Part shown: one piece after another, positions 4,164-63,401 of the stretch
Layout: every line of letters starts with the position of its first letter
Position numbering within the stretch: position 1 is the first letter of the stretch
NCBI GenBank assembly: GCA_019359155.1
Contig: JAHHHV010000076.1
Span: forward strand, 1 to 64,000
Direction: 5' to 3'
DNA length: 64,000 nucleotides
From: Pegethrix bostrychoides GSE-TBD4-15B
Lineage (GTDB): Bacteria; Cyanobacteriota; Cyanobacteriia; Elainellales; Elainellaceae
Made by a program: the position numbers and the translations under genes
The notes under the pieces: model-generated
Told to the model about the DNA's origin: nothing
The model's input: the letters and a program-made list of their open reading frames with translations, nothing else
The model's database searches: none

Positions 4164-4482
4164 ACTTTTAGGTCAACCTAATTCTGTATCTATTCTGTAT
4201 CTGCTGATGCACAAGCGTTGCGGATATTGTTCAGTCTAAGTCTGAGATGGGCTTCCTGTCGAGACTCTAAATTTGCAGCCGTTAGCCTTTATTCTAGAGC
4301 CTCAAACGAGTTCAGCGCGGTGGGTTTGAAGGGGCTGAGCCGATCGTTTTTAGTCATAAGCTGTGTCGCGCCTGTCAGGGTTTCATGATGCGGCTCAGCG
4401 ATCTTCTTAGCGATCTTCTTACAGTCCGCTCGATGGCCGCCAGCGCCGCATAATCCCCCAGGAATGGGAGCAGAAACGCCAG
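4164..4482. other. Spacer upstream of ilvB
   Basis: No gene is visible here. The segment holds the ilvB leader, with two adjacent copies of ATTCTGTATCT at 4181-4202, and a 12-bp duplication, AGCGATCTTCTT, near 4397-4420. Short open frames on both strands have no recognisable content. No convincing terminator hairpin was seen for the HRI1-like gene that ends at 4483. Confidence 0.5.
4181..4202. repeat. 11-bp tandem duplication in ilvB leader
   Basis: Two exact adjacent copies of ATTCTGTATCT begin 18 bp upstream of the ilvB ATG. One of several leader duplications in the window. Confidence 0.85.
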
Positions 4483-5310
4483 CTAGGCTTGGAACGCTCT
4501 GCCCGTCCCCCATTCTCGAATTTCCCAGACTCGAACCGGACAGGCTCCCCGCTGATCTGCCTGAGGTACAGTTTGCAGAACTCGCTGCTGCACCAGATCA
4601 ACCGTCAGGTCTGAAGGCGACCAGAGGGCAGTGCTTTCTCGCCAGGGCAGCGTCGAGCGCTGAATTTCCCACGGCTCTCGACCGGCTTGACATCGGCCAA
4701 ACGAGATTTCGCAGCCGAGATAGGTTTGCTGGTCTTGCAGCGTAGTCGCAGTCGCCAAACAGTCGCTCAAAGCATTTGCAGCAGGCAGGGCAACCGGACG
4801 ATTTTGGCTATAGATAAAATAGTCTCCAGCAATCACCAGACTGGCCTGCCAGGTGACATCTTCTGCACCTTCTGCCCAGACCAGTGCCGTGTAGTCGCCA
4901 GCGCCATCGTCAACTTTGCGCCACTGCTCGCGGTAGACCTGATCTACGCCGTCTTCAATCAAGATATCGTCCTGCCAGTACAGCAAGCCTAGATCTCGAT
5001 CGGGCTGCGACGGCTGATAGTCAATGTATCTCAGCCATTCACACTGGCCTTGCTTAAACTGGTCTTGCTTAAACTGAGCAATGCCTGCAAAACCCTGCTG
5101 CTGCGCCAAAGCCAGAGCCTCTTCGGAAGTGAGTGAGGCAAAGCTAGCCTGTCTGAGGTCAGGACGGTCGATCGGCAGACGCAGATCGCCAAAGCAGGCA
5201 GAGGTTTGCAGGTAAAAGACCTGCGTTTGGCTGCCAATCTGTCCATCTGCGGTTTCGATGGAAATTCGCTTCCACAGCCCTCTCAGCCAGTCAGGGACAG
5301 AACTCGTCAT
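4483..5310 (-). CDS. HRI1-like conserved protein
   Basis: A 275-aa soluble protein with no signal peptide or membrane segment. Tandem beta-rich halves, a Trp-Lys-Arg start (WKRISIE) and the block YLQTSACFGDLRLPIDRP near residues 33-50 resemble the family that includes yeast HRI1, a two-barrel lipocalin-like protein of unknown biochemical role. This family assignment comes from motif memory and is tentative; a CpcT/CpeT-type bilin lyase was considered but the expected motifs are absent. The gene carries an in-frame 15-bp duplication at 5043-5072 encoding QFKQD/QFKQG. A 15-bp unit repeated 3.5 times lies directly upstream of its ATG. It may share a transcript with the TPR gene upstream. Confidence 0.6.
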   Translation of the reverse strand: MTSSVPDWLRGLWKRISIETADGQIGSQTQVFYLQTSACFGDLRLPIDRPDLRQASFASLTSEEALALAQQQGFAGIAQFKQDQFKQGQCEWLRYIDYQPSQPDRDLGLLYWQDDILIEDGVDQVYREQWRKVDDGAGDYTALVWAEGAEDVTWQASLVIAGDYFIYSQNRPVALPAANALSDCLATATTLQDQQTYLGCEISFGRCQAGREPWEIQRSTLPWRESTALWSPSDLTVDLVQQRVLQTVPQADQRGACPVRVWEIREWGTGRAFQA

Positions 5311-5319
5311 GATTGCCTC

Positions 5320-5372
5320 GCCTCATTGGGTCTTGCCTCATTGGGTCTCGCCTCATTGGGTCTCGCCTCATT
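5320..5372. repeat. 15-bp tandem repeat, 3.5 copies, at a start codon
   Basis: The unit GCCTCATTGGGTCTC occurs at 5320, 5335 and 5350 with a partial copy from 5365. It fills most of the 76-bp spacer between the TPR gene and the HRI1-like gene and ends 9 bp from the latter's ATG. Confidence 0.92.
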
Positions 5373-5386
5373 CCTGAGCAGGCTGA

Positions 5387-10402: not shown

Positions 10403-11551
<1,149 letters not shown>

Positions 11552-11554
11552 CTA

Positions 11555-11576
11555 GTTGGCTATAGGTTGGCTATAG
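11555..11576. repeat. 11-bp tandem duplication in frmA leader
   Basis: GTTGGCTATAG is repeated twice without a gap, and a partial third copy (GTTGGCTA) precedes it at 11547. It starts 42 bp upstream of the frmA ATG. Confidence 0.85.
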
Positions 11577-11688
11577 GCTTGCTGACTATCGCACATTTAC
11601 GAGGCTGTTTCTACTCGTTTATCTGATATTTATCAAAGATCAAAACAAAAGTACAGAGAATTCACGACTGATATTATTGAAGATTTGC

Positions 11689-13447: not shown

Positions 13448-13483
13448 CCCAACCTATCGCCCAACCTATCGCCCAACCTATCG
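13448..13483. repeat. 12-bp tandem repeat, 3 copies, before a start codon
   Basis: CCCAACCTATCG is repeated at 13448, 13460 and 13472 and stops 12 bp upstream of the ATG at 13496. Confidence 0.92.
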
Positions 13484-13495
13484 CCAGACCCGACC

Positions 13496-14029
13496 ATGCA
13501 GACTTCGCCGGATCGCCTTCTCAATCGCCGCTTCGCTGAGAATTTTCTGCCCGTTCCCGCCACCCACTGCGCACCGCTGGGCAGAGTCGCGCCGCCGTTT
13601 GAGCTACTGAACGTGGCAACTGGCGAAAAGCTGCGGCTGGCCGACTATCAGGGGCAGCCTGTGTTGCTGGCCTTCACGCGCATTTTCACCGAACAGCACT
13701 ACTGCCCGTTTTGCTTTCCGCATCTGCTGGCGCTGAACGAGGCTTACGAGCAGTTCCAGCAGCGCGGAGCCGAAGTGCTGCTAATCAGCAGCACCGATCC
13801 AACGCAAAGTCAGGCGGTGCGGCAAGATCTGGGGCTAAAAATGCCGCTGCTCAGCGATCCAAGCTGCCGTAGCTTCCGGCTCTATCAGACGGGGCAGGCT
13901 TTAGGCGCACCGCTGCCGGCTCAGTTTTTACTTGACGCGACAGGCCGCATCCGGTTTCGGCATCTATTTTCGTTTATTGACCCGAATGCCAGCATCCCGC
14001 GATTGCTCTCGGCTTTGTTAAGGATCTGA
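13496..14029 (+). CDS. Peroxiredoxin-like protein (AhpC/TSA family)
   Basis: A 177-aa thioredoxin-fold protein. Residues 30-60 hold the typical N-terminal strand (APPFELLNVATGEKLRLADY), and the active-site region reads YCPFCFPHLL, a CxxC where classical peroxiredoxins have PxxxTxxC. The later FLLDATGRIRFRH is the conserved strand before the C-terminal helix. It therefore belongs to the redoxin group, closer to the peroxiredoxin-like (PRX_like2/AhpC-TSA) branch than to BCP/PrxQ. It probably reduces peroxides or acts as a disulphide reductase. No signal peptide. The leader carries a 12-bp triplicate. Confidence 0.8.
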   Translation: MQTSPDRLLNRRFAENFLPVPATHCAPLGRVAPPFELLNVATGEKLRLADYQGQPVLLAFTRIFTEQHYCPFCFPHLLALNEAYEQFQQRGAEVLLISSTDPTQSQAVRQDLGLKMPLLSDPSCRSFRLYQTGQALGAPLPAQFLLDATGRIRFRHLFSFIDPNASIPRLLSALLRI

Positions 14030-14037: not shown

Positions 14038-17000
14038 CTATTGCGTATTGACGCTGTTGATCATGACTTCGCCCTTCAGCATCCGATTCGCCGCATCCAG
14101 CAAGACTTCTTCGAGATAGGGCTTCGTGAAATAGCCTTTGGCTCCGAGCTGAACGGCCATCTGTCGATGTCGGTCAGCGCCGCGTGAGGTTAGCATCGCA
14201 ATCGGCAGGTGACTGAGGTTTGGATCTTTTTGAATGCGGGAGAGCAGTTCCAAACCGTCCATACGCGGCATTTCAATGTCGCAGAAGACGAGATCACAGG
14301 GCAGGCCAGAGCGCAGCTTTTCCCAGGCTTCTTGGCCGTCGCGAGCCTGCTCCACCCGATAGCCAACTTTGTTGAACGTCATGGAAAGCAGTTCGCGCAC
14401 CGTAATCGAGTCGTCCACAATCAGCACGGTTGGCTCAGTCTTCTGAATCTGCTCAGGCGGCTGTATAGCCTCGCCCATATCCCAGAGCGAGGTGGTACCA
14501 GACTCGCGGCGGATGCGTCCCTCCCAGAGATCGATCAGCTCCAGCACGTCGGCAATCGGCATGATGCGGCCATCGCCCAGCACGGTTGCGCCTGCAACTC
14601 CTAGCGGCTTAGGCACGGGGCCTTCAAGCTGTTTGATCACGATTTCTTGCTCGCCCAGCACCTGATCGACTTGCAGCGCCAGAAAGTTGCTGCTGCTCCG
14701 CAAGATCACCAACGAAATCATGTCTTCTTCTTGGTTGCCGCCATAGACGCTGCCGCGCCCCAGCACCCGGTTGTAGCGCAGCAGATCGGAGAGCGTCTGG
14801 AAGGGCAGCAGCTCATCACGCCACTGAATGCAGGGTCGCTCCTGATCGTCGATGATCACCCGCTCTCGCGGCACGTCAATCATATCTTCTACGCCATCCA
14901 TTGGGAAGGCGATGCGGGCGCGGTTACTGATGCAGCAGAGGGCTTTGGAAATGCTCAGCGTCAGCGGCAGACGAATCGTAAAGGTCGTGCCTTTGCCGAT
15001 GGTTGAGTCAATGTTGATGGTGCCACGAATTTCGTTGAGGTTGTTGCGTACCACGTCGAGACCCACGCCGCGTCCCCGCAGATCGTCAACTTGGTCGGCC
15101 GTGCTGAAGCCGTGATGGAATAGCAGGTCGTAGGTATCGAGTCGCGTCATGTCGCGAGCCTGGGTAGCCGTAATCAGCTTCTTAGCTAGCGCTTTAGCTC
15201 GCACAGCCTCAGGGTTGATACCTGCGCCGTCATCGCCCACCGAAATCACCGTCTGGTTACCCTGATGAAAGGCTCGAATCGTGATCCGTCCGGTGGGGGG
15301 CTTGCCTGCGGCGATCCGCTCTTCTGGGGTTTCGATGCCGTGCGCCACCGCATTGTTGACCAAGTGCGTCATTGGGTCATAGAGCAGCTCGACGATCATT
15401 TTGTCGATCAGCGTGTCTCTGCCTTCGATCAGCAGCTCAGCCTGCTTGCCATACTTGAGCGAGTTGTCGCGCACGCCTCGCGTCAGGCGGTCGGCAGTCT
15501 GGGCAAAGGGCACCATCCGCGAGCGGGTTAGCCCTTCCTGGAGCTGTGTTGTGATCTGCCGGAAGTTGCGCGTCACCTGGTCAGTTTCTTCCACCACGAA
15601 GTCGATGTCAGAGGCTGACTCACGCACCCGCACAATCAGCTCAATCATCTCCTGAGAGAGCGTATGAAAGCCCGTGAAGCGATCCATTTCCAGCGCGTCA
15701 AAGCTGGCTCCGGTGACGTGATTGGGCTGGGATGAACCAAAGCCGCTAACGGGCAGCATGGGCATGCCGCGTCGTCCTGAGAGCAGCGAACTCTCTAGCA
15801 GCGAGCGCTCATAGAGATCGCGCATCCGCTGCCCTACATCGCTGAGCTGCTGCACCTGATAGAGCAGATTGTCGAGAAACTGCCGCAGCCGCTCTTCGGC
15901 CTGTTCTAAGGTGTTGCGGTTGACGACCATCTCACCCACCAGATTGTTGAGATTGTCGAGATGCTTGACCGAGACCCGCATGTTTTGCTCGTTGATGCCG
16001 CCTCGACGATTGGGGCGACGATTGGTGTTCGACTGAGATTTGCGGGCAGGCGAGTTGCTGCCGCCTAGCGCTTGATCTGCATCTTGAAGCATGGCTTCGA
16101 GGTCGCCAAACTCATCGTCGGGAGCAGCTTCGGCTGGCTGGACAGGCTGGGCTGGCTGTTTGAGTCGAGCAGGCTGAGTGGCTGCAGGTAGCTCTGGAGC
16201 ATCGCCAATTAGGGCTTCTAGATCAGAAAAGTCCTCCGCGAAGCTATCGCCTGCAAAACTGTTTTCTGTAATATTCTCCTCTGACTCATGGATCGCCGTG
16301 ATGGGCGAGGAGTCTTCAGCCAGCATGGCGGCTAGATCATCGAACTCGGCTGGTTCTGCAATCGCTTGGTTTGAGTTGCCATCGGCCAGCATTAGGTCAA
16401 AATCGGCTGCTACTGAGTCTATAGATGCTGAGTCCATAGATTCTGCATCGTCAGATGAATGACCGTCTGAATGACCTAGATCTAAATCGCCCAAATCTAA
16501 ATCGCCCAAATCTAGATCGCCTAAAGCAGCCGTCGAGTCTGGGAAATCGATCAGATTGGGCAGATCGGCGCTCGATGAATCAGCGCTAGACGCATCGCTG
16601 TCAAAAAAACCATCTAGCGATATTTGATCAGCCAGCTGATCGGACTGCTCGGTTGGGGCATCAGCAAACAGATCATTAGATAGTTCCAGAGATTGCTCAG
16701 AGTTGGAGTCTTCAAACGCCAAATCTAAGCCTGCATCCAGATCGATATCTGTATCTGTCGTCTCCACCAGGCTAAAATCATCCCCTAGTCCAAAATCATC
16801 GTCAAAGTTCAGCGCATCGTCTGACTCTGGAGTTGATTCATCTAGAGCCGCCTCATCCGGAGCCGATTCGCCACTGAGCGCCAGCCCTGCCGCACCCAGC
16901 CCCGTTGCACTCAGCCCCGTTGCACTCAGCCCTGCTGCAATACTTGTGCCCAGTAGATCAAACGTGCCGTCATCTGCGGCTTCGTCCAATGATCCTGTTG

Positions 17001-20000
17001 GCTCCACTGCCTGATCTAGCGTTAGTGGATCTAAATCTAAGTCCAGATCGAGATTTTCAGCGTCGTCTAGCTCACCGAAGTCCAGCACTGGTTCGCTGAT
17101 TGAGCGATCTGCTTCAGCGTCCAGCAATCCCAAATTTGCTGCCTCATCTGCGCTTGCTCCTAGCTCAAAGTCTGTGCCAAATAGTTCCGGGGTCAAGTCA
17201 TCTAGCCCGCTGTCATCTAGCCCGCTGTCATCTAGCCCATCCACTTCGGCTTCGGTTGAAGCAGTCCCTGACGAGTCTTCGCCAAAATCAAACTCGCTAA
17301 AATCGAGATCCTTTAGCTCAGAGGATGCCGATTCAGCGCTATCGAAGTTAAGCGGCTCGTCTGGAGCCAGATCATCTGGACTTTCAATATTCTCAGTCGG
17401 CGCATCTATCTTCAAACTACTGAAGTCCAGAGCAGACTCAGGTTCTACTGGCTCAGCATCAAAATCAAAGCTGAAGCCATCATCCGACTCAGAGAGATTC
17501 AGCGACTCCAGGCCACTCAGCTCCTCGTCTTCCGCTGCTGCGCCTTCAGAAGATAAGTTGAAAAAATCTAGCTCATCGCCATCCTTCGAGGATTCCACAG
17601 CTGTTTCTGGATCAAATTCCAGATCGTCGGTTGAGAGATCCAGCGCATCTAATCCATCTGCTTCAGGCAATTCATCTGCTGATGCAGTGTCAATCAGCAT
17701 CTCTGAAGGATCTTCAGCTGGACTGGCTGGCAATGCTTCTAGCCCAGATTCCTCAAACCAAGCTGAGTCCTCTTCAGCCGTAGCTTCAAGCGCAGCAAAT
17801 GGATTGTCGGTTTCGGATTCTGGCTCTAAAGCTTCTAAGCCGATAGCCTCTAAGTCAATGCCTGGATCGGATGAGAGATTTTCTAGTGCCAAGCTTTCAG
17901 CATCCGGCAGCTCAAATTCGGTTAGCTCAGGCGATTCTAGATCGATGGCTTCGAGTCCGGGCAGCTCGGCTTCTAGATGCAAGTCCACTGCACCGAGATC
18001 CAGCGCAAACGGATTGTCGAGTTCGGTTGCTGAATCAGGCTCAGAGTCAGCATCGGAGTCAACATCAGAATCAAAGTCAAGCTCAAACACGTCATCTTGC
18101 GCCAAATCTTCTAAACCTGCTGCCGAAGCCGCTTCAGAGGTTATCTCAGCAGCTGTTTCGGTCGTTTCAGTTGTTTCAAAAGCAAGCTCTGCGACCGGAT
18201 CTGCGAAATCTGCCAGATTCAAATCACCTAATTCAAGATCAGCATTGGATGCAAAGGCATCAAACTCTAGATCTGGACTCTCTAGATCTGGACTCTCTAG
18301 ACTATCCAAATTATCCAGACTTTCTAGATCCGGAGCAGCAGTCGGCGACTGATCAAATAGGTCAATTGACAGGTCATCTGCACCTGGATCATCTAAGTCC
18401 AGCTCATCTGCACCCAATTCAAACGGTGATTCCAATGCTGTCTCTGTTGGGGGACTTGAATCAAACAGCTCGGATCCAGGCAGCGAGTCAAAGCTTAAAT
18501 CAGTCTCTAAAGACAGTTCTCCGAATGGATCGGCTAGATCGGTCGAGTTAGCTTGATCTACATCGGCTGTATCGGCTGTATCGGTCGGGTTCATCAGATC
18601 AGCTGGATCATCATCTAGCACAAAGGCATTCTCCGGTATCTCCTCTGAAATAGAGAACAGATCGTCTAAGTTCTGCAAGCTGTCAGTTCCCGACTGGGTG
18701 ATGTCTAGCTTGATTTCCGAAGTTGGCTCGATATCTAGAGACAGCTCGGCTTCTGGCTCCAGCGAGATCGCAAGCTCGTCATCTGTCAAATCAAAGTCTT
18801 CTAGTGCAAACAGGTTCTCTGCTGCGGCTAAATCTGCTAATGGCTCGGCCTCGGGTGGCGGATCTGATAAGTCCTCCGCAGGCAAGCCCGTAGGCGCATC
18901 GCTGTTGAAGCTTGCATCAAACTCGCTGAAGTCAAATTCTGATGCTGGAGCAGGTGCAGCGCTGCTGCTCAGCAAATCTGACCAGTCAGACTCAAGTTCT
19001 CCTGTCGAGGAGGTTTCGAGAGCTATTGCATCAGACTGGGACTCTGCTGAGCCACTCGACTCGCTCAACAGATCGGAAAAGTCGTCGTTAAAGTCATTAG
19101 CCGTCTCTAGCTCTAGCTCTGGCTCAGCACCGTTGATGCCATCCATCACCTCTTCTTGCCAGTTCAGCTCCAGGCCAGAGTCTTCGCCCTCAAACAGATC
19201 GGCCAGACTGTTCAACTCTGAGCTGCCCACCTCTGGCCCCATCTCTGGCCCCACCTGGAGACTACCTAGCCCAAGCTCAGGCGCATTTAGGGTTTCAGAA
19301 GTGCCAAAGGCTGCCTCGAACGCATCCAGCTCGCCCAGCTCTAGGTCAGAAGCCACATCCATTGCTGGCTGACTGCTGCCAAAAAAGTCGTCAAAATCGC
19401 TGTTCCCTGTCGGGGGTGCAGACAGAGCCGCAGACAGCTCTGGAGAGAGAGCTGGAGCGTCATCTGGATTGTCAGACAGCTCAGACAGATCCGAGCTGCC
19501 TGAATCAACGCCAAACAGGTCAAAGTCGCCGTCATCTAGACCGACATCTGCACCCAGCAGATTGGCTAGATCGGCGTCCGACACGCCATCGTCGGCAAAC
19601 GAGTCTAGCTCTGGAGGCAGTAGATCGAGTAAGTCATCGCTAGCAGACACATCTAGAGAGTTGCCTGCCAAGATCTGCTCTTGAGCATGTTTGATATCTT
19701 TAATCACAATCGGAGCCAAGGTCCGATAGGTGTTGTCAGCGTTGAGGATGACTTGTTCGGCGCTACCAACCAGGTCGCACCATTCAGGCAGATCGAACTG
19801 TTCGCCAGCCTGCGCCAGCGTCTGGCAAATCACCTGAAGCTGCTGGCGGCTGGCATCTGAGTCAGGCTGCTTAAAGAGTTGCAGCATTTCGCGCAGTCGG
19901 GCAGGCACGTCATTTTGGAAGACAAACCGCAGGGCGCTTTCTTCGCTGACTGCCGGGACTGGCTGCGCTCGAACCGCTGGCGCGGCGGCTGTAGCTGCTG

Positions 20001-20472
20001 GCGCTGTTACAAAGCTGACATCTTCGGGAGGTTGCATTCCCGACTGGCTGACAAGCTGCTCAAGGTGCTGATTCAGCGCCACAAAAACTGGCTCAACAGC
20101 AGTCATCGCCTCCTCAGCCTTGTCGTCTGTGAGGCCAAAGGGTCCCTGTAGCTGCTCAACAAGCTCTTGGAGCGTGTCATAAACCCGCAGCAGCATAGTT
20201 TCTAGCTTTTGATCAACTTGCAGAGCACATTCTTTAAGAACTTTAAAATAGTCTTCGAGTCGATGTGCTGTATGTTGAATACTGGTCAAACCCAACATGG
20301 CGGCACCGCCTTTGACAGAGTGTGCCGCCCGGAAAACTTCGTTGGCCATCTCTGAGTCTTCGAGGGTGGGCTTCAAATTGAGCAGCGCTTGCTCAATCGT
20401 GCTGAGGTGATCCTTTGCCTCCTCAATGAAGTAGCCCATGATCCGCTGTTGTTGTTCCGACAGCATATGCAT
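14038..20472 (-). CDS. CheA-type hybrid histidine kinase with giant acidic linker
   Basis: The product has 2,144 aa. An HPt domain is at the N-terminus, with the phospho-His in RAAHSVKGGAAMLG (about His51). A poorly conserved helical segment runs to about residue 280. An Asp/Glu/Ser/Leu-rich, apparently disordered region of about 1,200 residues follows. Then come a dimerisation segment from about residue 1,496, the HATPase core (VNNAVAHGIETPEER, DDGAGINPEAV, GRGVGLDVV), a CheW-like domain and a C-terminal receiver (IVDDSITVRELL, CDIEMPRMDG, TKPYL). This matches PilL/TaxAY-type kinases of cyanobacterial motility and phototaxis systems. No CheW, MCP or PatA-type genes adjoin it. The linker contains several in-frame 15-bp duplications. 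Confidence 0.92.
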   Translation of the reverse strand: MHMLSEQQQRIMGYFIEEAKDHLSTIEQALLNLKPTLEDSEMANEVFRAAHSVKGGAAMLGLTSIQHTAHRLEDYFKVLKECALQVDQKLETMLLRVYDTLQELVEQLQGPFGLTDDKAEEAMTAVEPVFVALNQHLEQLVSQSGMQPPEDVSFVTAPAATAAAPAVRAQPVPAVSEESALRFVFQNDVPARLREMLQLFKQPDSDASRQQLQVICQTLAQAGEQFDLPEWCDLVGSAEQVILNADNTYRTLAPIVIKDIKHAQEQILAGNSLDVSASDDLLDLLPPELDSFADDGVSDADLANLLGADVGLDDGDFDLFGVDSGSSDLSELSDNPDDAPALSPELSAALSAPPTGNSDFDDFFGSSQPAMDVASDLELGELDAFEAAFGTSETLNAPELGLGSLQVGPEMGPEVGSSELNSLADLFEGEDSGLELNWQEEVMDGINGAEPELELETANDFNDDFSDLLSESSGSAESQSDAIALETSSTGELESDWSDLLSSSAAPAPASEFDFSEFDASFNSDAPTGLPAEDLSDPPPEAEPLADLAAAENLFALEDFDLTDDELAISLEPEAELSLDIEPTSEIKLDITQSGTDSLQNLDDLFSISEEIPENAFVLDDDPADLMNPTDTADTADVDQANSTDLADPFGELSLETDLSFDSLPGSELFDSSPPTETALESPFELGADELDLDDPGADDLSIDLFDQSPTAAPDLESLDNLDSLESPDLESPDLEFDAFASNADLELGDLNLADFADPVAELAFETTETTETAAEITSEAASAAGLEDLAQDDVFELDFDSDVDSDADSEPDSATELDNPFALDLGAVDLHLEAELPGLEAIDLESPELTEFELPDAESLALENLSSDPGIDLEAIGLEALEPESETDNPFAALEATAEEDSAWFEESGLEALPASPAEDPSEMLIDTASADELPEADGLDALDLSTDDLEFDPETAVESSKDGDELDFFNLSSEGAAAEDEELSGLESLNLSESDDGFSFDFDAEPVEPESALDFSSLKIDAPTENIESPDDLAPDEPLNFDSAESASSELKDLDFSEFDFGEDSSGTASTEAEVDGLDDSGLDDSGLDDLTPELFGTDFELGASADEAANLGLLDAEADRSISEPVLDFGELDDAENLDLDLDLDPLTLDQAVEPTGSLDEAADDGTFDLLGTSIAAGLSATGLSATGLGAAGLALSGESAPDEAALDESTPESDDALNFDDDFGLGDDFSLVETTDTDIDLDAGLDLAFEDSNSEQSLELSNDLFADAPTEQSDQLADQISLDGFFDSDASSADSSSADLPNLIDFPDSTAALGDLDLGDLDLGDLDLGHSDGHSSDDAESMDSASIDSVAADFDLMLADGNSNQAIAEPAEFDDLAAMLAEDSSPITAIHESEENITENSFAGDSFAEDFSDLEALIGDAPELPAATQPARLKQPAQPVQPAEAAPDDEFGDLEAMLQDADQALGGSNSPARKSQSNTNRRPNRRGGINEQNMRVSVKHLDNLNNLVGEMVVNRNTLEQAEERLRQFLDNLLYQVQQLSDVGQRMRDLYERSLLESSLLSGRRGMPMLPVSGFGSSQPNHVTGASFDALEMDRFTGFHTLSQEMIELIVRVRESASDIDFVVEETDQVTRNFRQITTQLQEGLTRSRMVPFAQTADRLTRGVRDNSLKYGKQAELLIEGRDTLIDKMIVELLYDPMTHLVNNAVAHGIETPEERIAAGKPPTGRITIRAFHQGNQTVISVGDDGAGINPEAVRAKALAKKLITATQARDMTRLDTYDLLFHHGFSTADQVDDLRGRGVGLDVVRNNLNEIRGTINIDSTIGKGTTFTIRLPLTLSISKALCCISNRARIAFPMDGVEDMIDVPRERVIIDDQERPCIQWRDELLPFQTLSDLLRYNRVLGRGSVYGGNQEEDMISLVILRSSSNFLALQVDQVLGEQEIVIKQLEGPVPKPLGVAGATVLGDGRIMPIADVLELIDLWEGRIRRESGTTSLWDMGEAIQPPEQIQKTEPTVLIVDDSITVRELLSMTFNKVGYRVEQARDGQEAWEKLRSGLPCDLVFCDIEMPRMDGLELLSRIQKDPNLSHLPIAMLTSRGADRHRQMAVQLGAKGYFTKPYLEEVLLDAANRMLKGEVMINSVNTQ

Positions 20473-30425: not shown

Positions 30426-30460
30426 GGATATGTTCCAGATGTTCCAGATCAGAATTTGCG

Positions 30461-36127: not shown

Positions 36128-36135
36128 CTTACTTT

Positions 36136-49314: not shown

Positions 49315-51582
49315 ATGGCAATTCAAGCGACTCCATCAGGATTAGAGCAAGCAAAGGCAGAATATGCTCGACGATTTACGAGCCATGAGACAGTTGCTCA
49401 TTTGGCAGGTGTCTCTCGATCGACTGTAAGCAAGTTTTTCAATAAAACGCCTATTCGGATTGACAATTTCCGAGCGATCTGCGAGGTTTTAGCGCTCAGT
49501 TGTGAGACTGTTGCTGGTTTGGATGCTCTTGCTGCCAATCCCAAAACGCTAGAGTCACGACAGCCACTTGATGTGGATGAACTTATCGCTCAACCCGAAG
49601 TGCCAGAACCGGATACACCAGAGATAGATCAGGTTACGGCTTTTCTTCAGGTAGTTCGCCAGCATTGCTTCGATACTGTTGAGCGTGATCATAGCCAGAT
49701 TCAACTGCTCAATCGGCGGCAAATTTCAGTTAGTCATCTCTACGTAGATGTTTATGTCTTGGAGGACTTATCCAGCGAAACCTATATCAATCCAAAACAA
49801 CTCTCGCCAGATTATGACTCACAAACTGATCGTCTCTGGTTGGGAGAACGTAAAGATCAGGAACCCAGAAGCGGTGTAGAGGTTGCAGTCAAGAAAGCGC
49901 GGCTGATGATTTTGGGTAAACCAGGATCAGGAAAATCTACATTTTTAAAGTATCTTGCAGAAGCTTGTCGGCAGGGCGAATTTTGTTCAGGCTATATTCC
50001 TATCTTGATCATATTGCGAGAGGTCGATGTTCAAGAATTTGATTTGCTGAAGCTAATTCAATCAGCATTTGATCTGGATTTAGTCAGTACCGAGCAAACA
50101 CAGCAAATCCTGAAGCTGGGTCAAGTTCTGATCTTGATAGATGGTTTAGATGAAGTTCCACAAGCGCTGCAACGCTCTGTGCTGAATCAGATTCGTGACT
50201 TTAGCCGTAGGTATAGTGCCAACAAATATATTCTGACCTGCCGGACTCAGACTGCTGACTACATGCTACCCAACTTTGATTATGTTGAAGTCGCTGAATT
50301 TGACGAACCTAAAGTCACTCAATTCGCCGAGAAGTGGTTTGCCGCATTTTCAAATGGCAATCCGGGTGCCAATCTAAGTGAGAATTTTCTGAAAAGGCTC
50401 CTCTCACCTGAGCAAGAAAGAACGGCAAGATTGGCAGTAACCCCCGTACTACTCAGCCTTGTCTGTTGGATCTATACCAGTTGCCAAGACTTACCAGCCA
50501 AGCGTTCAGAGCTGTACAAACACGGTATTGAGCTACTTCTGAAAGACTGGGATAGAAAGCAAGGAGTACAGCGAGATAGCAGTCATCCAATCGTGGATCA
50601 ACTCACGCCAACCGATAAACAAAATTTGCTGAGTCATCTGGCGCTTCGCAAACTGGAGCAACCTGATAATTTCACGCTATTTGAGCAAGATGAAATCTTG
50701 AAACTGATCGCTGATTATCTTGGAATTAGCCTTGATGACAGTGAGGCAGTTTTGCGGTCAATTGAATCTCATCATGGTTTGCTAGTTGAACGAGCAAATG
50801 GTTATTGGTCGTTCTCGCACCTGACGTTTCAAGAATATTTCGCCGCTCGCGAAATCGTAGAATCTCGCGATCTGGAAGTGCTGCCACGCTTTGCGAAAAA
50901 CCTCATAGAGCAACGGTGGCGAGAGGTGTTTTTGCTTGCTGTGGAGATGCTGTCTGAAGAAAGAGCTGATGAGCTAGTGTGGCTGATGCAGCGAGAGATT
51001 GATCAGTTGCTGGCAGGTGATGAGAAGATTCAGCAGTTCTTGCATTGGGTGCAGCAGAAGTCGAGTTCCGTTGATGTTCCTTGCAAGCCTGCTGCGGTAC
51101 GTTCTTTCTACCTCAACCTTGCCATCCACCCCGCCCACGACCCCGCCCACGACCCCGCCCATGACCTCAACCTCGACTCGGCCCTTGCCTTCTCTCTCAC
51201 CTACGTCTCTATCTATGCTCGCAACTTCTATTACGTCTTCGATTTCGCCCTCAACTGCGCTCTCGATCCAGAACTAGAGATCGAACTACAACAACTTAGA
51301 AATAAACTGCCTAACAGATCTAACGGCAATCGAGAAAGCTTCAAGCAATGGTCGCAAGAAAAAGGGCCAGACTGGCGCGAGCAATTACGCGCAGTGGTGA
51401 TTGAGCATCGTAATATTGGGCACGATTGGCAATTTAGCAAAGAGCAGGAACAGCTCTTGAGCCAGTGCTATGACGCAAACAAACTGCTGGTCGATTGCTT
51501 GAATTTGCCAGATATTTACGTCAGTCCGAGCGTGCGGGAGGAGATTGAAGCGACACTGCTGTTACCGTTGGTAGCCCCCTAA
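49315..51582 (+). CDS. NACHT NTPase with N-terminal HTH (bacterial NLR-like)
   Basis: A 755-aa STAND protein. Residues about 10-70 form an HTH (VAHLAGVSRSTVSKFFNK), then a linker with YVDVYVLEDL. The NACHT core has Walker A LGKPGSGKSTFLKYL and Walker B VLILIDGLDEVP, the TCRT sensor and a winged helix with SFSHLTFQEYFAAR. The tail has the helical NACHT-conflict type C-terminus around a low-complexity AHDP repeat. Bacterial NACHT proteins of this group include antiphage defence proteins. No enzymatic effector domain is fused, and there are no LRR or TPR sensors. The stop codon lies within a dispersed palindromic repeat. Confidence 0.9.
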   Translation: MAIQATPSGLEQAKAEYARRFTSHETVAHLAGVSRSTVSKFFNKTPIRIDNFRAICEVLALSCETVAGLDALAANPKTLESRQPLDVDELIAQPEVPEPDTPEIDQVTAFLQVVRQHCFDTVERDHSQIQLLNRRQISVSHLYVDVYVLEDLSSETYINPKQLSPDYDSQTDRLWLGERKDQEPRSGVEVAVKKARLMILGKPGSGKSTFLKYLAEACRQGEFCSGYIPILIILREVDVQEFDLLKLIQSAFDLDLVSTEQTQQILKLGQVLILIDGLDEVPQALQRSVLNQIRDFSRRYSANKYILTCRTQTADYMLPNFDYVEVAEFDEPKVTQFAEKWFAAFSNGNPGANLSENFLKRLLSPEQERTARLAVTPVLLSLVCWIYTSCQDLPAKRSELYKHGIELLLKDWDRKQGVQRDSSHPIVDQLTPTDKQNLLSHLALRKLEQPDNFTLFEQDEILKLIADYLGISLDDSEAVLRSIESHHGLLVERANGYWSFSHLTFQEYFAAREIVESRDLEVLPRFAKNLIEQRWREVFLLAVEMLSEERADELVWLMQREIDQLLAGDEKIQQFLHWVQQKSSSVDVPCKPAAVRSFYLNLAIHPAHDPAHDPAHDLNLDSALAFSLTYVSIYARNFYYVFDFALNCALDPELEIELQQLRNKLPNRSNGNRESFKQWSQEKGPDWREQLRAVVIEHRNIGHDWQFSKEQEQLLSQCYDANKLLVDCLNLPDIYVSPSVREEIEATLLLPLVAP
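51130..51165. repeat. 12-bp tandem repeat in NACHT gene
   Basis: CCCGCCCACGAC is present three times in frame (third with one change), encoding repeated AHDP. It is much more GC-rich than the surrounding gene. Confidence 0.9.
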
Positions 51583-51583
51583 A

Positions 51584-51601
51584 TCCCCCAATTCTGGGGG
51601 A
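51584..51601 (+). terminator. Palindromic repeat acting as NACHT terminator
   Basis: CCCCCA-ATTC-TGGGGG follows 2 bp after the NACHT stop and precedes a short T-rich stretch. The wider word GCCCCCTAAATCCCCCA resembles a dispersed cyanobacterial repeat and supplies the stop codon. Confidence 0.65.
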
Positions 51602-51621
51602 CTTTGAGTAGAAACTGTAAA

Positions 51622-53866: not shown

Positions 53867-54568
53867 CTATAAATCTTTTGCCCAATCGGCTACCACGCTA
53901 GGCGAGCCGTACCACAGCCTGCCTGCTTGTGGCGAATGCCAGACCTGCTCCAGCGTCAGGTTTTCAGCTCCTGCCAAATGCGCGGCCTCGATGGGCGTAA
54001 TCCCGTCACCCCAGCAGTTGCCCTGACCGCTAGTCATTTCGTAGCTGCTGTAGGTCAACCAGCTGCCCCAGATGCGCTGGCCGTAGGCTGCTTTGCCCGC
54101 CACGCAGCGATAGCGCAGTCCCGGCTGAAGGGCACAGTGCGTCTTCACAAAATCGAGGTTGCGCTTCGTCCAGCGCTCTTGGCTGACATGCGGCGTGCCC
54201 AGCGTCACCAAAGCTTTTACCTGAGGATGTGCTTTCCAGAGACAACCCTGCCCCGTATCGCTCGGGTGAATGTCATAGGGCACTTCGCCCAGATAAATCC
54301 GGCAGATCCAGCCACCGGCCGAATGCCCCACCAGATTGACGGCTGCACTGCCAGTTTGCTGCATCACCTGCTGCACGGTTTGGTCGAGCTGCTGCAAAAT
54401 TGGCCGCATGGAGCGTCCGCCCAGCGTCGGCAACCAGTCACGACGGCGCAGCGGCACAATCTGGACTGGATAGCCCAAAGCCTCCAAGCTCTGCGCCATT
54501 TCGCGGTAGGGCAAGGCGCTGGCGAGGTATCCAGGCAAAATAACCGTGGGCAGCAGGGGGCGGGGCAT
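53867..54568 (-). CDS. Alpha/beta hydrolase, PGAP1/lipase-like
   Basis: The start at 54568 (MPRPLLPTVILPGYLAS) gives 233 aa and forms a TAATG overlap with the upstream hydrolase; a start 21 bp further upstream is possible. Motifs: PTVILPGYLA (oxyanion region), VNLVGHSAGGWICRIYLG (nucleophile elbow) and VTLGTPH. The fold is like PGAP1-type or triacylglycerol lipases. Likely an esterase or lipase on membrane lipids. Confidence 0.82.
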   Translation of the reverse strand: MPRPLLPTVILPGYLASALPYREMAQSLEALGYPVQIVPLRRRDWLPTLGGRSMRPILQQLDQTVQQVMQQTGSAAVNLVGHSAGGWICRIYLGEVPYDIHPSDTGQGCLWKAHPQVKALVTLGTPHVSQERWTKRNLDFVKTHCALQPGLRYRCVAGKAAYGQRIWGSWLTYSSYEMTSGQGNCWGDGITPIEAAHLAGAENLTLEQVWHSPQAGRLWYGSPSVVADWAKDL

Positions 54569-55485
54569 TAGGCAAACTGGCTCAGCCACTGAATAATTTC
54601 GGCGTTCACGACTTCCGGACGCTCGTCATGCGGACAATGACCCGTATCAGGAATCGGCACAAATTTGACTTGCCCAGATTTGTCAGCCTCAGATTTGTCA
54701 GCCTCAGACTGGTCAGCCAGCTTCCGGTATAGCTGAGCGCCAGCAATTGGAGTCCAGGGATCTGCCTCGCCCCAGAGCACTAGCAAAGGCTGGGTCACTT
54801 GCGGCAGCAGCTCTTCCGGTCGGGGACCAGGTGGCGCGCTGAGAATCGCGGCAAACACCTTTTGAGCGCCCGGATCGCAGGAGGGCTGATAGAGCAGATC
54901 AATTAGCTCGTCGGTAACGGCGGTGCGGTTGCGGTAAACCTGGTGTAGTGTCCGGCGCAGGCGCGGCTTTTGGCGAATCCGGTTAAACAAAAAGGGGCCG
55001 ATCAAATCAGAGCTGACCAGCTTGCCAAAACCAGCCATGACTAAACGCAGCGGCAGGTTCAGCTCTTCGGGGCGGTGATTTAGGCCGCCTGCGGCATTGA
55101 GCAATACACCGCCTTTGGCCATTTCGGGATGGTGAGCCAGCATCGTCAGGCTGAGCAAAGCGCCAATTGAGTTGCCCACGAAGACCGCAGGCTGCTGCAC
55201 CAGCGCCGTCCAGAAGTCGGCCAACAGCTCCTGCCACAGCTCAATGCTGTAGTCGAGCAGCGGCTTGTCAGATTTGCCGAAGCCCAGCAGGTCAATCGCA
55301 AAAACCTGATATCCAGCCACCGCCAGCACGGGCAGATTCTGTCGCCAGTGGCCAATCGAAGCGCCAAAGCCGTGGATCAGAATTAGCGGGATGCCCTCAC
55401 CCTGAGCCGCGTAAGCGATACGGTAATCGCGCCAAGTCCAGAACTGGGTATTTATGGGGGCAGCAGGCAGAATTTGAGTTGTCAC
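54568..55485 (-). CDS. Alpha/beta fold hydrolase
   Basis: A 305-aa protein with LILIHGFGASIGHWRQN, the nucleophile elbow VFVGNSIGALLSL, the acid near LVLWGEADPWTP and the His in DTGHCPHDERP. This is the common epoxide-hydrolase/haloperoxidase-type layout; close cyanobacterial homologues are often annotated as hydrolases linked to plastid-type PPH or menaquinone enzymes, but the substrate is unknown. A 15-bp duplication at 54675-54719 encodes repeated SEADK. Confidence 0.88.
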   Translation of the reverse strand: MTTQILPAAPINTQFWTWRDYRIAYAAQGEGIPLILIHGFGASIGHWRQNLPVLAVAGYQVFAIDLLGFGKSDKPLLDYSIELWQELLADFWTALVQQPAVFVGNSIGALLSLTMLAHHPEMAKGGVLLNAAGGLNHRPEELNLPLRLVMAGFGKLVSSDLIGPFLFNRIRQKPRLRRTLHQVYRNRTAVTDELIDLLYQPSCDPGAQKVFAAILSAPPGPRPEELLPQVTQPLLVLWGEADPWTPIAGAQLYRKLADQSEADKSEADKSGQVKFVPIPDTGHCPHDERPEVVNAEIIQWLSQFA

Positions 55486-55569
55486 GAGAGCCGATTTTAA
55501 TTTACCTTTCTTAAACTATTCTAATAGATAGTCAGGTCAGCACTACTGGGTCGCTGCTGATGAGAACCT

Positions 55570-55617
55570 GTCTGGTGAGAAAACTGTCTGGTGAGAAAAC
55601 CGTCTGGTGAGAAAATA
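55570..55617. repeat. 16-bp tandem repeat, 3 copies, abutting ferredoxin ATG
   Basis: GTCTGGTGAGAAAAC plus one base is repeated at 55570, 55586 and 55602; the third copy runs into the ATG at 55617. Each unit contains GGTGAG, a weak ribosome-binding-site word, so the leader has three. Confidence 0.95.
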
Positions 55618-55856: not shown

Positions 55857-56915
55857 CTAATGCTGCCGCACCTGCTGGCGAATTAACCGCTGGACGCTGG
55901 TGACCGTTCGGTTCAGCTCGTGGCTCTGGCGTTCGGGATTTTGTAGATAGGCCTGTTGCTCTTCTTCAATCATCTGCACATCCTGCTGCACCAGACCATC
56001 TAAAATGCGCTGGGCTGAACCAAACAGCCGCGTTTTCAGGAATCGCCGGAAGCCAATGGGCAGCTTATGCAGCTTGTCAAAGGCGTTGAGCGAGGTGAAG
56101 TGAATCAGATAGGCGCGGGTCGCAGTTTCAGAAATGGGGCAGAGCAGGCAGCAAATTTTGAAGTCTTCGCCCAAGGTCGCCACCCAGTGCGGATAGATAT
56201 AGCTCACGTCTAGCGGCTCAGGGTGAAGCTGGCGCAGGGCTGGGAAAAACAGCTGGGAAATTGACCAAATCTTGTCAATTTTGTAGTAGCTCTGCGCCTG
56301 ATAGTGAGCATCCACGCGCTCAGGCGACTCCTCAAGATCTTGCAAAACCGGATCCGCCCAAGCCTGATAGTCCTGATGCAGATGCCCGTGATACATGTCC
56401 ATCAGGTTTTCCATCAAAAATGAATAGTGCGCCTTGCAATCAATCAGCGAGACGGTAGCGATGTAGTTGAGGTGATCCCATTCGGGCAGACCCAGCAGCG
56501 GTACGGAGTCAGACAGAGATGGCTCGCCCGGAAACAGCCAGACAAAGCCATCTTGCTCGCGCACCGGATAGCCTTTCAGCTGCGCACTAGGCAGCTTTTG
56601 GCACTCGCTGAGGTAGGGAACTGCCACGCAGGCTCCGCTGCCGTTAAAGCACCAGCCGTGATAGCTACATTCAAGCTGGTCGCCCACCACCTTGCCGTGG
56701 CTCAGCTTCACCTGCCGATGCAAACAGCGATCTTCAATTGCCTGGATCTGCCCTGCCTGATCTCGAAACAGCACAATTGCCTGATGCCAGAGCGTCAAGC
56801 CCAGCGGCGCAGATTTGACTTCCGAGCTGCGGGCGACCACATACCAGTGGTTGAGATTGATCCCCCAGCGCTCGGACTTGCGGAGCTGGGCTGGGGCTGG
56901 AGTAAACTGCTGCAT
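55857..56915 (-). CDS. Rieske non-haem iron oxygenase (PaO/Tic55-like)
   Basis: A 352-aa protein. The Rieske ligands are CLHRQVKLSHG and CSYHGWCFNGSG (C-x-H, C-x2-H). The mononuclear iron site is in ENLMDMYHGHLHQ. The layout matches chlorophyll-catabolism type oxygenases (pheophorbide a oxygenase, Tic55) and other aromatic-ring hydroxylases. The substrate is unknown; a pigment or lipid is plausible. The electron donor could be the adjacent ferredoxin, which lies 12 bp away in a convergent direction; this is inference. A 9-bp tandem duplication abuts its ATG. Confidence 0.9.
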   Translation of the reverse strand: MQQFTPAPAQLRKSERWGINLNHWYVVARSSEVKSAPLGLTLWHQAIVLFRDQAGQIQAIEDRCLHRQVKLSHGKVVGDQLECSYHGWCFNGSGACVAVPYLSECQKLPSAQLKGYPVREQDGFVWLFPGEPSLSDSVPLLGLPEWDHLNYIATVSLIDCKAHYSFLMENLMDMYHGHLHQDYQAWADPVLQDLEESPERVDAHYQAQSYYKIDKIWSISQLFFPALRQLHPEPLDVSYIYPHWVATLGEDFKICCLLCPISETATRAYLIHFTSLNAFDKLHKLPIGFRRFLKTRLFGSAQRILDGLVQQDVQMIEEEQQAYLQNPERQSHELNRTVTSVQRLIRQQVRQH

Positions 56916-56917
56916 CC

Positions 56918-56935
56918 AAACTTTCCAAACTTTCC
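56918..56935. repeat. 9-bp tandem duplication at Rieske gene start
   Basis: AAACTTTCC occurs twice in a row, 2 bp from the ATG of the minus-strand Rieske gene. Confidence 0.8.
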
Positions 56936-57742: not shown

Positions 57743-57862
57743 AGGGTTAGAACGGACTCTGATAGCGATTCTAATAAAAGTTTACATAAGTTTGCGTTGT
57801 TTGCTGCCAGCTGCTCTAAAAACCTGATCAAAAAACTAATCAAAAAACAAACCAAAAAACAA

Positions 57863-57890
57863 ACCAAAAAAGGCGCAGATTGGCTGCGCC
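57863..57890 (-). terminator. Terminator of fasciclin gene
   Basis: On the minus strand the stem GGCGCAG-CCAAT-CTGCGCC is followed by TTTTTTGGTTTG. The T-rich region beyond is a 12-bp repeat, AAACCAAAAAAC on the plus strand, and lies at the 5' side of the PrxQ gene. Confidence 0.82.
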
Positions 57891-58765: not shown

Positions 58766-59165
58766 GAAGGCTGTCCTCTGTCTTAATTGCACCGTGAATT
58801 ACAAGCTGAATCACAAGTTGCTTGAAGCATGTGAAGCAATTGCAAAGTTGCTTTCCAGTTGATGACGGTTCGGTTAAGGTTCGGTTCCTGAACTTGACAT
58901 TTGAAGTTTTGATGACTATCAGCAGAATTGCCACAAACTCTGAACAGTTAGCCCATAATCTCTGCTAAAAGACAGAGGTGCAAGCAGCCAAATTCCGGTT
59001 GCCGCGCCTCAGCTGCACCTAAAGTAAGCAGCAATTCAGCGGTACTGCTTCAGGCTGTCTCCTATGAGGCTATGGTTCTCCAGCAATCTGCTGTAACGTA
59101 AATAGGCGACGAGCCAGGGACTTGCCTGCATTTTTTTAGGAGCCTGTATTTTTTAGGAGACCGTT
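58766..59165. other. Divergent spacer between FAS1 gene and GST
   Basis: No gene is visible. It contains the 11-bp duplication GGTTCGGTTAA/GGTTCGGTTCC at 58867-58888, 100 bp upstream of the FAS1 start, and the duplicated ribosome-binding-site leader of the GST at 59132-59165. Promoters for both outward genes must lie here but no consensus stood out. Confidence 0.55.
59132..59165 (+). promoter_or_regulatory. Duplicated Shine-Dalgarno leader of GST gene
   Basis: Two 17-bp units each contain TTTTTTAGGAG (59132-59148 and 59149-59165). AGGAG is at 59138 and 59155; only the second is at normal spacing (6 bp) from the ATG. Confidence 0.75.
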
Positions 59166-59997: not shown

Positions 59998-60027
59998 GCC
60001 AACTACCAGGCAGCCAACTACCAGGCA
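59998..60027. repeat. 15-bp tandem duplication at transporter start
   Basis: GCCAACTACCAGGCA is present twice without change and ends 3 bp before the ATG at 60031. Confidence 0.95.
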
Positions 60028-61597: not shown

Positions 61598-61612
61598 GAA
61601 CTGTAACAGTTC
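61598..61612. promoter_or_regulatory. Palindrome upstream of psaD
   Basis: GAACTG-TAA-CAGTTC is a perfect palindrome with a 3-bp centre, 83 bp upstream of the psaD ATG. On the psaD strand it contains GTTACA, one half of an RpaB HLR1 site; a second half at proper spacing was not seen. Confidence 0.35.
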
Positions 61613-61645
61613 TTCAGGAAAGGCAGGCTTAGCGATTCGGCTCAG

Positions 61646-63340
61646 CTACTCAACATAGGGAATTAGCTGAAGAGAACCCAGCCCCAAATCTTGCTCCGTG
61701 ATGGCACGGGCTTCAAAGAGCGCCATCATATCGTTGAGCTGTGGGTTGCCGCGTGAAGCGCCCTTGAGACCTCTGGCAATCACCAACCCGCAGAAGCCCT
61801 TAGTTTTTTTGCAGCGCTGATCCCACTTTTTACGCGCCTGAATATGCACCGGATCTTGCTCATAAAACTCGCCAAATAGATGCAGCTCGCCGTCTTGGGT
61901 CTGCAAAATGCCCAGGTCGTACTGTTCTTCAGAGAGCGGATCTTCGCCCGGATTGAAGCAGATGGCCTGGAGTCCGCCCGCCGCCTGAATTTCGGCAATT
62001 AGCGCCTTGGCTTTGGGGCGCGAGGTTTGGATCAAAATCACCGGGAAGCCATCTGCGCCGCGCGTAAACTGATCGGGGCTAGGCTGGTGCGTCTCGACCA
62101 CCTGCCGCAGCACGTCAAAGGTGTCCCAGGGCATCGCGCCTAGGCTGTAGAAGGCATCATCCGGGATTAGATCATTGTGCAGCATCGGCATCCCTAGATC
62201 TAACTCGGACTCAGCATCAGAGTCGCCCATCGACATCTCAAACAGCTCAGCAGCTACCTCAGGCAAGGTTGAAACTGCGACGCTGACGGTTGGCTTCGAT
62301 TTGCTCAATTTGCTCGATTTATTTGAGCTGTCTGTTTGGGTCGAGCCACCAGGAGCAGGAATCCGATAGCGGCTGCTGAGAGCTGGAAACGTCTCAACGT
62401 CCAGCTTGGAGAGATGCTGCTGAAAGAATCGCTGCAATGCAGTCAGCGCCACCAGCAGCAGACGGGCTTCTTCTTCATAGAGCACAGGCCGCATTCCTTC
62501 GAGCGGATGTAGGTTGCCGAAGCTGGGTCGAACGCCAGTTTGGGCAAAGAGCTGGGTGATTGGATTATCTGGATCACTTGGATCATCTTCGGGTTCTAGA
62601 TCGAGATAGGGATCGAGCTGGTCAAAGGTGACAAACAGGCAGTCTTGCTCCAAGAAAGCTTCTTCGAGTGCCTGCGGCTGGTCGCTGGCGGCCATCACCT
62701 GTCGGCGGAATTTTTTGAGCGAATCGAGCGAGCGGTAAAGCAGCAGGCCATATTCCATGCCCAGCATCCCCAGCGTCGAGACATAGAGCGTTTCGACATC
62801 GCCGTAGTTCAGCTCCACGGCAATGATTTTCTCTTCATCGAGTACTACCCAGGGTTCGCTGTCCCAAATCTGGCGCGTCACCGTCAAAATCGGCTCAGCG
62901 TAGTTGGGCGGCAGTTCGGGTGGCTGATCGGCTCCAAGGCTCTGCATCCCCTGAAAAATCTCGTCGATCAGCGGCAGATCGGCCACGTAGTCTACCGTGA
63001 TGCCCAGCTCTTGCAGCACGCCGCGCAGGAAAAATTGCAGCTCCCGGTCGCGCACCAGGATCTTTTGTGGACGAGCAGGCATCCCGGCTCCCTGCGGCGA
63101 CTCCATGGCTTGCAGCAACGCTCTGACCACCGCCTCATGCCCCGCATCCGACGAGACGACATCCATAGCTCGCACCAGTCCTTCCATGCCGTCCACCCAG
63201 AGAATGCAGTCGCCCTGCCGCGAGTCGGTTTCGAGACTGCGAATCTGCCGATCTAGAACTCGCCGATCGCCTTCCCAAATGGCTGGAATTTGGCGGAGTT
63301 GCTGCAAGCGACGGCGAGTAGAACTGTTGAGAGCATTCAT
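61646..63340 (-). CDS. DUF6930-like conserved cyanobacterial protein
   Basis: A 564-aa soluble protein with no signal or membrane segment. It starts RRRLQQLRQIPAIWEGDRRVL and includes PWVVLDEEKIIAVELNYGDVETLYVSTLG-type residues, an acidic middle section (about 250-275), a Ser/Lys linker near 335-350, and a C-terminal block with QCxxTKGFCGLVIARG-like residues. I recognise this as a cyanobacterial family, tentatively DUF6930; no biochemical role is known. It lies upstream of psaD on the same strand, 130 bp before its start. A 13-bp duplication precedes its ATG. Confidence 0.7.
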   Translation of the reverse strand: MNALNSSTRRRLQQLRQIPAIWEGDRRVLDRQIRSLETDSRQGDCILWVDGMEGLVRAMDVVSSDAGHEAVVRALLQAMESPQGAGMPARPQKILVRDRELQFFLRGVLQELGITVDYVADLPLIDEIFQGMQSLGADQPPELPPNYAEPILTVTRQIWDSEPWVVLDEEKIIAVELNYGDVETLYVSTLGMLGMEYGLLLYRSLDSLKKFRRQVMAASDQPQALEEAFLEQDCLFVTFDQLDPYLDLEPEDDPSDPDNPITQLFAQTGVRPSFGNLHPLEGMRPVLYEEEARLLLVALTALQRFFQQHLSKLDVETFPALSSRYRIPAPGGSTQTDSSNKSSKLSKSKPTVSVAVSTLPEVAAELFEMSMGDSDAESELDLGMPMLHNDLIPDDAFYSLGAMPWDTFDVLRQVVETHQPSPDQFTRGADGFPVILIQTSRPKAKALIAEIQAAGGLQAICFNPGEDPLSEEQYDLGILQTQDGELHLFGEFYEQDPVHIQARKKWDQRCKKTKGFCGLVIARGLKGASRGNPQLNDMMALFEARAITEQDLGLGSLQLIPYVE

Positions 63341-63375
63341 AGCTGAAAATCGTAAAGGTGAATTGGCGATTGACG

Positions 63376-63401
63376 GCGGGTTAGGGGCGCGGGTTAGGGG
63401 C
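63376..63401. repeat. 13-bp tandem duplication in DUF6930-like leader
   Basis: GCGGGTTAGGGGC is repeated exactly, 36 bp upstream of the start at 63340 (minus strand). Confidence 0.9.

Follow-up and report, generated by a model that had tools for sequence, protein, structure and literature searches.

Cyanobacterial spacers carry tandem repeats of the STRR and LTRR type, which form dispersed families with shared units. Here, we analyse short tandem duplications in 64,000 nucleotides of Pegethrix bostrychoides GSE-TBD4-15B (contig JAHHHV010000076.1, positions 1 to 64,000; "the window"), in the genome to which this window belongs and in related genomes. Unlike the STRR and LTRR families, these duplications have unrelated units, as the original prediction for the window had stated: among 103 arrays with a period of at least 11 base pairs (bp), only two pairs share a 10-mer, and one of these pairs consists of neighbours. 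They are therefore to be seen as the outcome of a mutational process and not as a dispersed repeat family, and it is near certain that this process acts genome-wide and is capped in length.

Statements on published work refer to the portions of each source that were available to us. Many short tandem repeats have likewise been counted in Halomicronema hongdechloris (722 tandem repeats with a median unit of 14 bp; PMC6416890), as have many tandem repeats in Leptolyngbya BL0902 (571; PMC11298460), and in their available portions these two reports count the repeats without analysing a cap, an origin or boundaries. The Escherichia coli topA allele R168C causes head-to-tail tandem duplications of 2–19 bp that are independent of existing repeats, and the same report states that the first formation of tandem repeats from non-repeating sequence is unexplained (PMC6954433).

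Tandem duplications are frequent, genome-wide and capped in length

We sampled convenience stretches, comprising 864 kb of the window's own genome (G000; 5.72 Mb in 92 contigs), 460 kb of a genome of the same genus (G002), 480 kb of a single-contig genome of another genus (G011) and 20–100 kb each of ten further genomes; the three large samples thus represent two genera. A wider frame was provided by 80 named loci around ilvB (24 cyanobacterial, 56 other). Genes were called with a custom script, not a standard gene caller. The G000 sample contains 281 exact doublings of period 8–24, of which 159 are intergenic and 122 genic. For periods 10–16 it holds 191 exact doublings, or 22.1 per 100 kb, compared with none in 250 kb of E. 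coli K-12 and 17 in the 980 kb of the 56 non-cyanobacterial loci (1.7 per 100 kb). The corresponding rates are about 43 in G002 and about 24 in G011, 19.9 in G003, 16.7 in G026, 15.0 in both G009 and G040, 11.7 in G017 and 9.7 in G004, and in the lower-rate genomes 7.0 (G006), 5.0 (G036, one event in 20 kb) and 3.3 (G001 and G053); ten picocyanobacterial named loci reach 1.0 and 14 other cyanobacterial ones 3.6. The duplication rate is high in much of the window's family and in G040, a member of another family, and is uneven even within a genus. Chance does not account for these numbers, in line with the original prediction: dinucleotide shuffling (20 shuffles per spacer) yielded no exact doubling of period 11 or more in the spacers of the G000 sample, where 94 are observed. 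Arrays extend further in G002, in which 45 of 179 events have at least three copies (six of 140 in G000), for example about six copies of a 16-bp unit at L274 12323–12422.

Coding DNA of G000 (696 kb) holds 62 doublings of period 12, 15 or 18 and five of period 10, 11, 13, 14, 16, 17 or 19. The simplest reading suggests a mutation process filtered by selection, with duplications surviving where they are harmless, that is at any length in non-coding DNA and mainly as multiples of three in genes. The units are richer in AT than their flanks in all three large samples.

Intergenic exact doublings of G000 number 20, 16, 26, 21, 8, 20 and 9 at periods 10 to 16, followed by 0, 0 and 2 at periods 17 to 19. 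Extrapolating from periods 10–16 predicts, for periods 17–23, 63.9 doublings in G000, 81.2 in G011 and 315 in G002, where 2, 2 and 20 are seen. If up to 12% mismatches are allowed, G000 spacers hold 14 doublings at period 16, a single one at period 17 and ten more at periods 18–23, and G000 coding DNA has 24 doublings at period 15 compared with one at period 18. The exact counts of G011 are seven at period 16, two at period 17 and none at periods 18–23 (near-exact: 16 at period 17 and two at period 18). G002 has 24 exact doublings at period 16, then nine, four and six at periods 17–19 and a thin tail, part of which likely consists of multiples of shorter units. Pooled, the ten other genomes (587 kb) contribute 63 doublings at periods 10–16 and three at periods 17–40. 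The upper unit length is about 16 bp in G000, 17 bp in G011 and 19 bp, with a small tail, in G002; below 8 bp, chance doublings mask the duplication signal.

Extension, the number of bases of homology beyond the unit, was evaluated for events with fewer than 2.5 copies. Zero extension, meaning no microhomology, is found in 47% of these events in G000, 39% in G002 and 45% in G011, where 55–56% are expected if homology is not used. Ordinary replication slippage between short direct repeats is hard to reconcile with so many events lacking microhomology, and it should produce a gradual fall with unit length instead of a sharp cap and no fixed boundary base such as the one described below. An extension of at least 3 bp in 19–27% of the events, compared with about 6% by chance, indicates that a minority may arise by slippage, which also fits the later growth of arrays to three or more copies (the 45 events of G002). 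As the main source of the duplications slippage is disfavoured, and we consider it unlikely. Hairpins are not enriched near the events (8 of 140 in G000, 11 of 179 in G002 and 8 of 113 in G011, compared with 5.6–6.1% at random), nor are same-strand complementary sequences (0.281 of 139 G000 events and 0.284 at random; G002 and G011 alike).

Transposon excision and misassembly can both leave adjacent short duplications. That the doublings are excision footprints (target-site duplications) or an assembly artefact is nevertheless extremely improbable, because their lengths spread over 8–16 bp without a single size, copy numbers above two occur and the single-contig genome G011 shows the same pattern. 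The repeats of Halomicronema, a relative sequenced with PacBio, speak against it as well (PMC6416890).

Duplication boundaries share a preferred base on one strand

Among 127 intergenic doublings with zero extension (G000, G002 and G011 pooled), a C occupies position −4 of 51 left ends and of 50 right ends read on the other strand (p 6.5e-5 and 2.9e-5; background 23%), accompanied by T at positions −5 and +3 and by G at +4. In spacers, 101 of 252 boundary readings have the C compared with 24% in the background (p 5e-9), and 90 of 230 after thinning to events at least 100 bp apart (p 1e-7), while shifting the frame by 1–8 bases lowers the four C/G readings to 12–32%. Both ends of one and the same strand carry the C at −4 in 50 of 126 zero-extension events compared with 13% in simulations (p 6e-14). 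This same-strand pair recurs in the class with one base of extension, which was not used in motif discovery (32 of 60, null 25%, p 3e-6); with two to four bases of extension, its frequency is not significantly different from the null. In an orientation-aware model the left cut is preceded by T-C-(A/T)-N-N and the right cut by C-A-N-N; the gain is 167.9 (20 random starts), and 20 null sets (four random starts each) reach 66–107. Taken together, the three large samples show a strong signature; outside them it is modest.

The arrangement of the sites bears on a route that needs no topoisomerase, in which nicks offset between the two strands create 5′ overhangs, at most about 16 nucleotides (nt) long, and the overhang is doubled when the ends are filled in and ligated to each other. 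This route predicts exact doublings without microhomology as well as a length limit, and a plant version of it is cited in PMC6954433. The boundaries, however, fit sites on the same strand better (log-likelihood gain 33.3 with two parameters, the best model) than sites on opposite strands (25.2, two parameters); four independent sites reach 28.7 and a single 5′ site 15.1 (one parameter each). In addition, no Ku match was obtained in 13 of 13 genomes, with a positive control in Bacillus subtilis, and the GC content of the units does not drop as they become longer, contrary to what overhangs limited by melting predict, so that we rejected a melting limit. Fill-in of overhangs is thus an improbable source.

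TopA as a candidate duplication enzyme

Type IA topoisomerase I prefers a C at −4 of its cleavage site (PMC7587558). The residues named there for the −4 pocket (Arg169, Arg173 and Tyr177) are present in the main TopA of 13 of 13 genomes (12 full, G004 partial). The R169A substitution turns the preference for C into one for A and greatly lowers the activity of the enzyme (PMC7587558). Based on one base preference and one laboratory mutant, we lean slightly towards chromosomal TopA as the origin of the duplications. The fuller proposal, to which we assign a probability of roughly 0.45, is that unmutated TopA acts as a natural duplication mutator in a clade of filamentous cyanobacteria by nicking, short extension and rejoining.

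In the scheme that we infer, TopA would cut one strand after C-N-N-N and retain the 5′ end on its tyrosine, and a polymerase would lengthen the freed 3′ end by no more than about 16 nt, thereby displacing the strand whose 5′ end is retained. The enzyme would then rejoin the extended 3′ end, preferably where a C is again found at −4, leaving a looped-out duplicate to be fixed by the next replication. The cap might reflect how long a displaced strand can become before TopA no longer spans it. Chemistry like that of R168C in a natural TopA would account for the cap, for events without microhomology, for paired sites on one strand and for the dispensability of Ku.

In addition to the standard TopA, G000 encodes another type IA topoisomerase (about 743 amino acids; L327 1063–3294, contig C54). 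It is also found in G001, G002, G003, G009, G017 and G026 (two copies in G026), and G006, G011, G040, G053 and G036 have a single type IA match only. The second enzyme keeps Arg168 and lacks Arg169, and the boundary signature therefore points to the main TopA. We rejected the second enzyme as the cause because it has a different residue where E. coli has Arg169 and because genomes with and without it do not sort by rate (high-rate G011 lacks it, low-rate G001 has it). Loss of MutS and loss of the 5′ nuclease domain of Pol I were rejected as well: MutS is matched in 12 of 13 genomes (none in G004, 77% complete) and the nuclease domain in 13 of 13, and both are found in each of the 12 genomes that are at least 90% complete.

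Several observations weigh against TopA as the agent. The C at −4 was found by scanning 20 columns and is a preference, not a rule. A first boundary logo, drawn from 53 intergenic and 33 coding events of G000 only, revealed no motif; one appeared on pooling three genomes, and the motif hunt was therefore exploratory. By genome, the C is strongest in G011 (41 of 76, p 4e-8) and modest in G002 (25 of 70, p 0.0094) and in the window's own genome (35 of 108, p 0.017; background 23%). Held-out genomes agree weakly and with small numbers (ten other genomes: 21 of 58 readings from 29 events, p 0.014; named cyanobacteria: 10 of 26 from 13 events, p 0.049), and non-cyanobacteria show no significant enrichment (11 of 36 from 18 events, p 0.27). 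Across the 66 zero-extension events in genes the C at −4 is absent overall; the same-strand pair occurs in 7 of 38 genic events at period 9 (null 16%) and is weakly enriched at periods 12, 15 and 18 (7 of 20, null 16%, p 0.03; with one base of extension 6 of 12, null 30%, p 0.12). Weak flank similarity could lie behind part of the same-strand correlation; C −4 enrichment rises once similar flanks are removed. Of three zero-extension examples tested in the window, one has the same-strand pair and the ilvB doubling is without it; of 13 window doublings checked, six allow such a placement, two of them with too many placements to be informative. Events with at least 3 bp of extension exceed chance by 13–21 points, so slippage has a share. 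Finally, the E. coli mutator residues R168 and R35 are conserved in 13 of 13 main TopA proteins and in the eight of eight paralogues seen, so known mutator residues do not account for the high rate, and a single TopA alignment column (1177) separates four high-rate from three low-rate genomes.

Duplications in the window

The original prediction listed 13 tandem duplications of 9–17 bp at or near start codons. We scanned the window with Tandem Repeats Finder (TRF) and for exact doublings. Nine of the 13 hold an exact adjacent doubling and three a near-exact one. The entry upstream of FAS1 (58865–58886) is unsupported as a duplication event, as it has period 11 with a mismatch and the relative G004 aligns without a gap. 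The list is thus mostly real and also incomplete, given that, of the exact doublings of period 8 or more in the window, 15 are non-coding and 11 fall within reading frames. The duplications are:

4181–4202, 11-bp exact doubling with zero extension in the ilvB leader; single copy in G004 (near-identical flanks) and G001
4397–4421, 12-bp doubling in the same spacer, absent from the original list; the placements allowed for it put a C at −4 of both ends on the same strand
5320–5372, 15-bp unit in 3.5 copies with one mismatch (exact part 5335–5372), upstream of the HRI1-like open reading frame 4483–5310 (minus strand; no Pfam family)
11545–11577, overlapping doublings of period 8 (11545–11562) and period 11 (11555–11577), upstream of the zinc alcohol dehydrogenase gene frmA, 10403–11512 (minus strand)
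13448–13485, 12-bp unit in 3.2 copies, 10 bp upstream of an AhpC/TSA (peroxiredoxin-like) gene, 13496–14029 (plus strand)
16480–18584, five exact doublings of periods 15, 15, 15, 15 and 9, all divisible by three, inside one open reading frame of 2144 amino acids, 14038–20472 (minus strand)
24200–24227, 12-bp doubling, absent from the original list, in the spacer between a radical-SAM (lipA-like) and an M50 peptidase gene
24271–24300, 15-bp exact doubling with zero extension in the lipA leader; on the bottom strand, both ends have C at −4
30430–30449, 9-bp non-coding doubling, absent from the original list
37025–37050, 13-bp doubling with one mismatch, upstream of an AAA_26 (bioD-like) gene
39480–39508, 14-bp doubling with one mismatch, 14 bp upstream of a GDP-mannose dehydratase-like gene (rfbG)
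42107–42122, 8-bp doubling, shorter in G004
54675–54708, 15-bp in-frame doubling in an alpha/beta hydrolase gene, 54568–55485 (minus strand); single copy in G001, G002 and G003
55568–55615, 16-bp unit in three copies with one mismatch (exact part 55568–55600), directly upstream of a ferredoxin gene; single copy in G003
56915–56935, 9-bp unit in 2.3 copies, at the start of a Rieske gene, 55857–56915 (minus strand)
57841–57871, 12-bp non-coding unit in 2.6 copies, absent from the original list; shorter in G004
59124–59159, 17-bp doubling with an indel, found by TRF only, 6 bp upstream of a GST gene; shorter in G004
59998–60027, 15-bp exact doubling, 3 bp upstream of an EamA gene
63376–63402, 13-bp exact doubling, 35 bp upstream of a DUF6930 gene

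The reading frame of 2144 amino acids is a hot spot for protein-level repeats. Elsewhere in the window, a sequence of about 34 bp (51574–51608) has many copies of 88–100% identity spread over either strand of G001, G003 and G004 and is probably a dispersed palindromic or terminator-like element. A congener search showed conserved non-coding stretches at a c-di-AMP riboswitch (33051–33192, minus strand), a Cyano-1 RNA (36078–36150, minus strand) and a tRNA-Pro (37213–37287, plus strand).

Some duplications are recent gains

A relative has the single-copy state for seven events, namely the ilvB doubling, those at window positions 54675 and 55568 and four doublings of G002, G003 and G004, and some duplications are therefore recent gains. 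The comparison is thin: of 244 G000 doublings, G004 scored four (one single, three doubled, all three genic), G003 four (two single, two doubled), G001 two (both single) and G002 three (one single, one doubled, one ambiguous), the remainder having no match in the relative or an unspanned site. Six doublings are shared with a relative (four of period 9, one of period 10 and one of period 11), three of them inside genes (window 7498, 26490 and 60223).

Duplications are not tied to leaders

Ten of the 13 originally listed duplications are no more than 45 bp away from a start codon, matching the prediction; in these distances Rieske, which touches its own start, was counted by hand, and lipA, bioD and FAS1 lie 86–122 bp from script-chosen starts. 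The proximity had been read as a sign of regulatory or phase-variation repeats, selected in leaders to tune expression. Randomisation across all intergenic DNA gives an excess within G000 (45 of 140, 29.0 expected, P 0.001) and none in G002 (20 of 179, 35.2 expected) or G011 (15 of 113, 18.8 expected). This test is the cruder one, and when each duplication is placed at random within its own spacer (at most 600 bp), the link to start codons fails: 41 of 103 G000 duplications lie within 60 bp of a start compared with 43.5 expected, and G002 (17 of 96, 24.0 expected) and G011 (11 of 52, 15.0 expected) fall below expectation. Leaders are thus not richer than other non-coding DNA within spacers, which largely removes the proposed enrichment, and we rejected leader specificity on the strength of these three genomes. 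Convergent spacers, which lack leaders, also carry duplications, at 0.84 per kb in G000 (1.08–1.34 in leader-bearing spacers, p 0.41) and, more richly, at 3.74 per kb in G002 (1.79–2.00, p 0.003), as do genes, and some relatives have a single copy. Selection for regulatory repeats is accordingly a highly unlikely explanation.

Comparison with known systems

No report of a capped tandem-duplication process in cyanobacteria was found in the literature searched, with subscription papers mostly outside the search. New short duplications likewise arise in one step in a Burkholderia beta-lactamase gene, where they are tied to direct repeats or to same-strand complementary sequences (PMC4169377), the latter not being enriched here. 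If TopA writes repeats of up to about 16 bp, these would supply raw material for new linkers and regulatory spacing, and de novo tandem repeats in non-repetitive bacterial DNA would have a physical origin. Hundreds of natural events with a sharp cap and readable boundaries make the origin of tandem repeats testable by sequence alone.

The duplications resemble those of E. coli topA R168C in being head-to-tail, independent of repeats and of a comparable length range (PMC6954433). The R168C hotspots matched no known cleavage motif, and the available portion of that report does not mention a C −4 boundary signature. In contrast to that laboratory allele, R168 is conserved here and the process is natural and has accumulated genome-wide. 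The natural event set connects a topA mutator known from the laboratory with the evolution of genomes in nature.

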